Notes under the pieces: model-generated
Database searches by the model: none
What the model saw: only the letters and a program-made list of their open reading frames with translations
What the model was told of the DNA's origin: nothing
Shown: positions 9,930 to 19,672 of the stretch, one piece after another
How positions within the stretch are numbered: the first letter of the stretch is position 1
Layout: each line of letters starts with the position of its first letter
Program-made: the position numbers and the translations under genes
Origin: Defluviitaleaceae bacterium
GTDB taxonomy: Bacteria; Bacillota; Clostridia; Lachnospirales; WRAX01
Length of the DNA: 64,000 nt
Assembly (NCBI GenBank): GCA_009779935.1
Contig: WRAX01000002.1
Coordinates: forward strand, 52,428 to 116,427
Direction: 5' to 3'

Positions 9930-9990
9930 GAAGTTTTTTCATATTGCAAAAATGTCGCCGCCATGGTATAATTATGTGGGAGGTGGTGGC

Positions 9991-10200
9991 ATGAAGCCAA
10001 CACAAAAATATGTTCCGCTTACAAAACAATCCAAACGCAAACAAAGGGAGTTTTATGCAAAACAGCGGCAAGATTGGGGCAGCATAAACCCTGCAACCAA
10101 GCAAGCACCAAATGGCAAGGCATATAACCGAAAAAAATCCAAACACCGCCACTCGTCAGATTTTGAGCCGTGTTTGGATTTTTATTTACTTAAATTTTAG
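9991..10200 (+). CDS. Small conserved-looking hypothetical protein
   Basis: SD gggaggtgg before ATG 9991; MKPTQKYVPLTKQSKRKQREFYAKQRQDWGSINPATKQAPNGKAYNRKK. Confidence 0.6.
   Translation: MKPTQKYVPLTKQSKRKQREFYAKQRQDWGSINPATKQAPNGKAYNRKKSKHRHSSDFEPCLDFYLLKF
10133..10183. terminator. Strong hairpin/terminator overlapping the 3' end of the small ORF
   Basis: AAAAATCCAAACAC ... GTGTTTGGATTTTT perfect 14 bp inverted repeat ending in a T-tract. Confidence 0.75.
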
Positions 10201-10322
10201 GGTTCCTCCTCATTGCCTTTTTGGTATTATCTGACTGCATTTGGTTTTGAAAATACTTTGCACCCGTTATATTAATAATCACAAGGCTTTCTGGGTCAAA
10301 TACCGCCCTTCTCTATATTATA

Positions 10323-10480
10323 CTCAAACAACCCCAAAACAGTATCACTAAACTTGTCTTTTTATCCGATTTACTGCGTCCCAAGAACCCGCACATACCT
10401 CTGGGTATGCACGGGAACCTCGCTCCTTGCAATCGAATAAAAATCCTGCGTTTTCTGATACTGTTTTGGGGTTGTTTGAG
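10323..10480. repeat. Nested palindromic element with 25 bp perfect terminal inverted repeats (MITE-like or structured RNA)
   Basis: CTCAAACAACCCCAAAACAGTATCA (10323-10347) / TGATACTGTTTTGGGGTTGTTTGAG (10456-10480); inner TTTTTATCCGATT/AATCGAATAAAAA; apical CCCGcaCATACCtctgGGTATGcaCGGG. Confidence 0.85.
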
Positions 10481-10572
10481 CATAACAACCAATGCGTGAG
10501 TATTGAGACAAGTGCATCCCCGAGCATGATTAGGGTTACAGCACCTTAGCGATAGTTGCTTGGCCGTTACCG

Positions 10573-12024
10573 TTATGAGCGACCCTCCATTTTAGCTTTA
10601 CGGGCGGCGGCTTTGGCCTCCCGCACCGCCTTCATGCCCCGCCATTTGCCGCTGTTGAAACGATGTTTAACTACAATAGAGCGCACGGTTTGATCCAGGA
10701 AAAAGGCAAACCAGCCGCCGGCAACGCCCATGTTAAATACGAACACGAACAGGGCGGTAAGCAACAGGCGGGTGCCCCAAATACCCACAATGGACGCATA
10801 AAGGGGGTACATGGTATCACCGCTGCCCCGCAATGCCCCTGCCGTGGACATATTGCTGGACTGTACAAATTGAGTCAGCGCCATAAAGTAAAACACAGGT
10901 ATGCCGTATTGGATGACGACGGGATTATCCGTATAAATACCCAAAATCGGGCGGGAAAATACGATGAAGGAGATGGTGACAACGGATGTTACCAGCCTTG
11001 CCGTGCGTGCGGAAAATATTGCCATGCGATGGGCTTCGTCATAATCATCCCGCCCAACGGCTTGCCCAACAAGGGCAGTGGTGGATACGCCAAAGGCAAA
11101 ACTGACGGCAAAGGCCAGCATATTAATGTTTATGGCAATGGTGTGTGCGGCAAAGGCGTAATAGCCCAGCGATGCCAACATGGCAGTGTATACCATAAGC
11201 CCCGTTTGTATTGCAAACTGTTCCCCTGCCGACGGCAGGCCTATGGAGAAAATATTACGCACCGTGCGGAAATTGGGCTTCCAGCTGGACAGTAATTTTA
11301 GGCGTATTGGGGATTTTTTCCAAAACAGCAGCAGGGACATTGCCGCCAAAAAGGTTACACCACGGGCGATGGATGCAGAAATTGCCGCACCCTGCACCCC
11401 AAGGGCGGGAAAGCCCAAATTGCCGTGGATAAGCATAAAATTAAGAAGCAGATGCAGGGCATTGCCTGCCAAATTGTAAAACATGGAAATTTTTGTTTGC
11501 CCAGCCCCGCGGAATGCTGCCGTAATACCCATGGAAACAGCATGAAAGGCAAGGCTTAATGTTATAATTTGGAAAAAGTTTGTGGAATAGGCTATTACCT
11601 GCGCATCATCAATCATCAACGGGAAAAAGTGGCGTGCACCAAAAAAGCCCACGGATGAAACAATAATACCAAGGCCAAAATTAAATATAATAGCTTGGCG
11701 GGTAATTGCCGCCGCCTTTTTATGGTCGCCTTTGCCCACATTCCAAGAAACAAGGGCGGTTGTACCCACGTTTACAGCATTAAAAATTGCGATAAGCAGA
11801 AAAAATGGCTGCTGGGTAAGCCCGACGGATGCAACAGCCTGCTCGCCTAAATTGCTTACCATTATCATATCCACAACGCCTTTTAGGGAAATCAAAAACA
11901 GCTCGAAAAAAGCGGGCAGGGTAATTTTGCGGATTTTACCGTAGGTTTCCCGACCCTCTTTTGTGCGAAAGCTGTCAAAAAAGCTTATCATGCTATTTTT
12001 TATGTAAAGGAATGGGTTGCGCAT
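10573..12024 (-). CDS. MATE family efflux transporter
   Basis: 12-TM-type protein; ALPAFFELFLISLKGVVDMIMVSNLGEQAVASVGL and GAGQTKISMFYNLAGNALHLLLNF. Confidence 0.92.
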   Translation of the reverse strand: MRNPFLYIKNSMISFFDSFRTKEGRETYGKIRKITLPAFFELFLISLKGVVDMIMVSNLGEQAVASVGLTQQPFFLLIAIFNAVNVGTTALVSWNVGKGDHKKAAAITRQAIIFNFGLGIIVSSVGFFGARHFFPLMIDDAQVIAYSTNFFQIITLSLAFHAVSMGITAAFRGAGQTKISMFYNLAGNALHLLLNFMLIHGNLGFPALGVQGAAISASIARGVTFLAAMSLLLFWKKSPIRLKLLSSWKPNFRTVRNIFSIGLPSAGEQFAIQTGLMVYTAMLASLGYYAFAAHTIAININMLAFAVSFAFGVSTTALVGQAVGRDDYDEAHRMAIFSARTARLVTSVVTISFIVFSRPILGIYTDNPVVIQYGIPVFYFMALTQFVQSSNMSTAGALRGSGDTMYPLYASIVGIWGTRLLLTALFVFVFNMGVAGGWFAFFLDQTVRSIVVKHRFNSGKWRGMKAVREAKAAARKAKMEGRS

Positions 12025-19409: not shown

Positions 19410-19672
19410 ATGTGTGCAACATCTAAGCGATGAAGCGGGAGGTTGCTGATGGCTTTGCTATCAGGTTTTTCCGTGGAGCGATTTGGGCTAATCCCGAGCG
19501 GTGTTTGCGCTGTGCAACGGTTTTATTTTGCAAAATGCAATATGAAACACTCGGTTGCGTGTGCGCCTAACAATCCTTCGGTAAGCCAATGCTGCTTGAT
19601 GTTTAACAACATTGGTTATTAAGGAAGGGTTTTTTTATACCCACAAGATTTAAGAATGAAGGAGGTTGTAAA
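19410..19672 (+). promoter_or_regulatory. S10 operon 5' leader (putative structured r-protein leader/attenuator)
   Basis: ~260 nt untranslated; stem CCTT..CCAATG / CATTGG..AAGG followed by GGGTTTTTTT (19575-19636); looks like a structured rpsJ leader but class not verified. Confidence 0.6.

Follow-up and report, generated by a model that had tools for sequence, protein, structure and literature searches.

The element and its surroundings

The window, a stretch of 64,000 nt from a Defluviitaleaceae genome, contains a nested palindrome at positions 10319-10484, between a small plus-strand ORF (9952-10200) and a MATE-family gene on the minus strand (10573-12024). A sequence-only reading of this DNA had described a 158-bp nested palindrome with perfect 25-bp terminal repeats. 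The palindrome is real and lies where that reading placed it; its extent is larger, with outer arms of 29 bp that are complementary at 28 of 29 positions. The same reading found no ORF in the element, and indeed none of at least 60 aa overlaps it. It also judged the structure too elaborate for a simple terminator; no terminator-like site (a GC-rich stem followed by a T run) occurs on either strand between 10200 and 10620. Promoter-like sites are absent from the element, and the two that were found lie outside it. The minus strand, which folds better than the plus strand, is sense with the MATE gene, and the element lies about 88 bases past the MATE stop codon. A MATE paralogue elsewhere in the same genome (contig C48:1737-3182, 86% identical) has no element downstream. 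The element and its ends are as follows.

10319-10484, minus strand: whole mobile element; its ends are those common to the copies, and the strand is the better-folding one, which bears the conserved RNA
10319-10347, plus strand: left terminal inverted repeat TATACTCAAACAACCCCAAAACAGTATCA, 29 bp, beginning TATACTC, an IS630-type tip; its first 26 bases are the right tip of the IS630 relic on contig C19
10456-10484, minus strand: right terminal inverted repeat TGATACTGTTTTGGGGTTGTTTGAGCATA, 29 bp, with one mismatch to the left repeat (CATA for TATA on the plus strand)

Copies in the genome and an IS630 relic

A BLASTn search of the genome for copies and flanking duplications, which the sequence-only reading had proposed, returned about 12 copies or part-copies of approximately 165 bp in the element's own assembly, at 96-99% identity. 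Several copies end at contig ends, as expected for a repeat. Most of the intact ones have TATA at both sides, which could be either tip or TA duplication, given that there is no clean empty site. The window copy has TATA at its left and the one-base variant CATA at its right, a candidate flank duplication where the earlier reading saw no clear target-site duplication. Allowing up to 3 mismatches, the genome has 18 occurrences of the tip TATACTCAAACAACCCCAAAACAGTA and none of the pattern read backwards. Two congeners conserve the left flank of one copy (L002) up to about 13 bases from where it is inserted, and both lack the element there. The search for clean empty sites in these two congeners gave only flanks whose alignment stops near the element, because the spacers beyond the L002 flank have diverged.

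A degraded IS630-family element is present on contig C19 (1181-2066), with HTH_Tnp_IS630 and DDE_3 domains in a reading frame that is interrupted by stops. Its right end is the exact tip of the palindromic element (26/26), and its other end, TATACTAAAACAACTTGCAAAAAGTA, matches that tip at 20 of 26 positions. Another IS630 fragment, from the 3′ end, lies at the start of contig C11; its tip matches at 24 of 26 positions. Because the TATA...TATA tips match the tip of this resident broken IS630-family element, the palindromic element is, judged by its ends, a non-autonomous IS630-type MITE. The MITE candidate of the sequence-only reading is thereby strengthened by copy number, TATA flanks, and the tip shared with the C19 relic. 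That reading had staked its proposal on the element being neither single-copy nor unconserved; it is multicopy and its fold is conserved.

Two loci have features of their own. At L073 (2939-3080, contig C7 of this genome), an 82-bp derivative belongs to the same tip family, and its end is the exact start of another element with a TATACCCATTTCC tip, so that these are adjacent or composite insertions. At L039 (1315-1507, minus strand), one copy has apparently inserted at the edge of a cobalamin riboswitch, the match to which overlaps the copy's tip.

A predicted RNA fold on the minus strand

Folded as RNA, the plus strand of the 158-bp segment first reported reaches -66.9 kcal/mol, against -28.7 +/- 3.5 for shuffled sequences (z -11). 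Over the whole element, the minus strand reaches -92.2 kcal/mol and the plus strand -68.0. The minus strand folds better because several apparent mismatches are G-U pairs on it. These include positions that the sequence-only reading had written in lower case as mismatches (ca/ca in the apical hairpin), which pair on the minus strand. The parts of the predicted RNA, given in window coordinates, are listed below.

10349-10454, minus strand: conserved structured RNA core; matched by covariance models R1 and R2, 97.5 bits; double changes at 34 of 35 pairs across the family
10444-10449, minus strand: outer loop module, 5′ side, GCAGGA in the RNA; GGA 80-94% conserved in alignment A2
10353-10358, minus strand: outer loop module, 3′ side, GACAAG in the RNA; GAC 80-96% conserved in alignment A2
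10424-10430, minus strand: inner loop module, 5′ side, GCAAGGA in the RNA; A-GGA 90-98% conserved
10374-10380, minus strand: inner loop module, 3′ side, GACGCAG in the RNA; GACG 90-94% and last G 98% conserved
10388-10415, minus strand: apical hairpin CCCGUGCAUACC-CAGA-GGUAUGUGCGGG, paired along its full length when the G-U pairs of this strand are counted, from sequence and fold

Conservation is concentrated in the internal-loop modules, where GGA opposite GAC is kept at 80-96%, and the surrounding helices vary in sequence. Two familiar motifs were considered for these modules and set aside. A kink-turn, assessed by eye, would fit the tandem G-A pairs but not the adjoining three-nucleotide bulge. 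A CsrA-like GGA sponge does not match the arrangement, in which GGA faces a conserved GAC in an internal loop and is not displayed in a hairpin loop.

Relatives with other transposon ends

BLAST revealed relatives that share the interior and end differently; one congener, for instance, has the tips TATAGTAATACCACC and TATACCCATTTCC. Covariance model R1, built from a 13-sequence alignment of the core (about 100 nt), matched in 53 of 392 genomes of the order, where the core is mostly multicopy and often found at 10 or more places per genome. A second model (R2), applied to 399 genomes sampled from the phylum at large, matched in 12, the element's own genome among them. With the element of one of two complete genomes of about 6.5 Mb as the query, BLAST also detected a relative in Paenibacillus cellulosilyticus (NZ_CP054613.1, 793605-793768), on a replicon of 2.7 Mb; a 270-base stretch there folds at -105.7 on its better strand, against -76.4. 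Beyond cellular genomes, the window element had no match in the phage and plasmid collections, and its relatives had none in the phage collection. One pattern found the core on a single 13-kb contig among viral contigs (IMGVR_UViG_3300021399_004957, L219 155-246), which is only a candidate virus, and a second pattern found nothing among the viral contigs.

In about 130 elements, and irrespective of how the tips read, the arms mostly extend close to 30 nt outwards from the core. Sorted roughly by pattern, the tips comprise 74 of TATA/ATAC type, 20 TTAGGAAC-like, 15 TAGACC/AGAGCC/CTAGGG-like, 7 TATTGCTCC, 5 CTAGT, and 8 unclassified, and several genomes have more than one tip type. The tips other than TATA may be IS5-like or of another kind. 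The finding of the same core inside miniature elements with several unrelated tips indicates that the core has changed its transposon vehicle repeatedly. A transposase was found for the IS630 tip type alone, in the broken relic. For two other tip types, no partner was found near the loci examined: inspection by eye of the first 60 residues of ORFs at those loci gave no obvious transposase near TTAGGAAC and CTAGG tips.

The long arms are missing from the core in three genomes of other families (G706, G714, and G749); one of these cases is a tandem pair, two arm-less cores 8 bases apart (L239 8541-8757, G706:C13). Strand asymmetry is weaker in these three genomes, and their arm-less copies may thus be a related palindrome or a bare form of the core. 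Many Y1 transposase fragments lie at contig ends in G706. Five very short elements (L281, L299, L317, L334, and L336; 61-107 bp) have the tips of core-bearing elements and no room for a core. At L045 (G015:C1, approximately 1340-1547), an unrelated palindromic element with TATACTAATCT tips is apparently inserted in the apical loop of an RNA-core copy.

Evidence for selection on the RNA

In the 13-sequence core alignment, 20 of 35 pairs change on both sides and the covariation score is 0.511, compared with 0.170 for shuffled alignments and at most 0.12 when the structure is slid; this MAFFT alignment was not fitted to a model, although its own sequences were the source of the structure under test. 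In an alignment of 105 distinct sequences that was fitted to the covariance model and hence leans towards it, double changes occur at 34 of 35 pairs, 89.6% of cells are paired, and the score is 0.640 (shuffled, 0.180). Covariance analysis, which the sequence-only reading had called for, yields compensatory changes at nearly every core pair.

Strand asymmetry is a stronger test than covariation. If complementarity were maintained at the DNA level only, G-U and A-C mispairs should be equally frequent, since strand-symmetric mutation would produce the two kinds at equal rates and copies are found in either orientation. Read on the RNA strand (window minus), the mispairs in the arms are G-U in 195 cases and A-C in 21; the arms lie almost wholly outside the covariance model, and their alignment gave no credit to G-U pairs. 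In the core, the counts are 209 G-U and 86 A-C. Because the copies are related, these counts are not independent and the raw totals are inflated, and a count by genome was used as a partial correction: 32 of 33 genomes lean to an excess of G-U (p 8e-9). The RNA strand also folds better in 139 of 140 elements. The three genomes in which the core is without long arms are those with weak asymmetry. Taken with the covariation, this asymmetry points to selection that keeps an RNA fold over the whole element, the transposon tips included as its outer helix. Of the candidates put forward in the sequence-only reading, a structured noncoding RNA is thus supported by compensatory changes, conserved loops, and a preference for one strand, all seen in comparisons of sequence.

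Interpretation

Leaving aside the purpose of the RNA, we regard it as probable from these comparisons that the element is an IS630-type MITE that doubles as a conserved structured RNA and whose core has switched transposon vehicles repeatedly. The IS630 transposase of the lineage would recognise the shared terminal inverted repeat and insert the element at TA or TATA, as the shared tips and flanks suggest. The window minus strand of the whole element would then specify one long structured RNA, with an outer helix of about 30 bp formed from both transposon tips, followed by helices split by loop modules and a small apical loop. Each RNA would have two loop modules (GGA opposite GAC), and some relatives three. 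Our best guess is that such an RNA would serve the element and not its host, and selection would act on the source copies that are transcribed and fold. We read a selfish RNA as the simplest account, in which a structured RNA hitchhikes on transposons much as the RNA part of an IStron would. How it might benefit the element is a more tentative matter: the GGA/GAC modules of a transcribed copy could bind a host or transposase factor and make the insertion tolerable or mobilisation likelier, a suggestion that we consider possible and rather doubtful.

MITEs are usually regarded as inert insertion-sequence debris, and the element could be an ordinary MITE without RNA function, its palindromy persisting only through the need for inverted-repeat tips and the youth of the copies. 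The copies in the genome are 96-99% alike and their tips match an IS630 element, both as this explanation expects. What makes it improbable is that the core lies outside the tips and yet its helices covary over the phylum, and that G-U mispairs in the arms are nine times as frequent as A-C, an imbalance that DNA-level constraint with strand-symmetric mutation does not predict. Constraint on one strand of a palindrome would also fit recognition of a single-stranded DNA hairpin by a Y1 (RAYT/IS200-like) transposase, as in the REP/BIME-like candidate of the sequence-only reading, and the bare or tandem cores in three genomes are in keeping with it. REP/BIME sequences are multicopy intergenic palindromes with much shorter hairpins that are moved by Y1 (RAYT) transposases. 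The present element resembles them as a multicopy intergenic palindrome and differs in its longer hairpins and in showing no association with Y1 genes, which are missing from many element-rich genomes and present in many that lack the element. Among genomes with many copies, Y1_Tnp had no match in G001, G003, G027, G037, G050, G053, G077, G091, G129, G191, and others. The long tips and TATA flanks, shared with an IS630 element of the DDE type, also suggest a different mechanism, and we consider single-stranded DNA recognition highly improbable.

A role for the host can be envisaged too, in which transposition has spread a cis-regulatory or mRNA 3′-end element (a stabiliser, antiterminator, or processing site) that here would form part of the MATE 3′ UTR. 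The RNA strand is sense with the MATE gene in the window and copies lie mostly between genes. However, between tandem genes the RNA strand runs with the genes in 23 cases and against them in 28 (p 0.58), in a count that relied on simple ORFs as gene calls and had 37 incomplete contexts, and this lack of orientation bias does not favour a regulatory or 3′-end role. The absence of a terminator-like site and the different places of the examined insertions in congeners likewise make host use unlikely.

Relation to known elements

Short IS630-type elements and structured repeats are already familiar. To our knowledge, a strand-specific RNA core that recurs through a phylum while its transposon ends are exchanged is not, and we found no description of such an element in a body of literature largely without subscription journals. 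The nearest known elements are RUP and BOX (PMC3049150) and IStrons (PMC4227781), and it is by their descriptions that RUP, BOX, and bcr1 are set apart. RUP of Streptococcus pneumoniae is likewise a short non-autonomous repeat with IS630-like tips (those of IS630-Spn1) that folds with its tips paired; it is 107 bp long, belongs to one species group, has one tip type, and is not reported to share a core behind several transposon ends (PMC3049150). BOX elements of streptococci are also mobile repeats with extensive RNA structure, and their expression has been demonstrated; the same source presents them as modular (boxA/B/C), with a different sequence and structure (PMC3049150). The bcr1 repeat of the Bacillus cereus group is another short multicopy mobile repeat without a gene, and by its description differs in having a TTTAT motif and in being limited to one species group (PMC6542083). 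IStrons, which occur in Firmicutes and Fusobacteria, offer a parallel for a partnership of RNA and transposon, as one RNA class is joined to different insertion-sequence families (PMC4227781). In them the RNA belongs to the group I introns, with an established activity, and a transposase gene is aboard (PMC4227781), in contrast to the RNA of about 100 nt plus arms, without a gene, of the present element.

We lean somewhat towards the view that the core represents an undescribed class of structured RNA, carried phylum-wide as the passenger of miniature transposons whose tips form its own outer helix, moved repeatedly between families (IS630-type and several others), and kept by selection on the RNA, which would be IStron-like without a known ribozyme. 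With a one-stranded RNA fold kept behind unrelated transposon ends across the phylum, the unit that selection maintains would seem to be the RNA and not the ends. This raises a testable question, namely what the RNA must do to be worth carrying for a transposon without genes. The covariance model can meanwhile be used to annotate many unexplained hairpins in genomes of the phylum. Existing Rfam models do not capture the element: the window searched at the gathering threshold had no match to it, and the element with ten relatives at lax thresholds had none that fits, the best weak match being a microRNA model far below its cut-off; RUP was not found among the Rfam matches. The sole Rfam match of the window at the curated threshold is an S10-Clostridia ribosomal protein leader at 19422-19497 on the plus strand.
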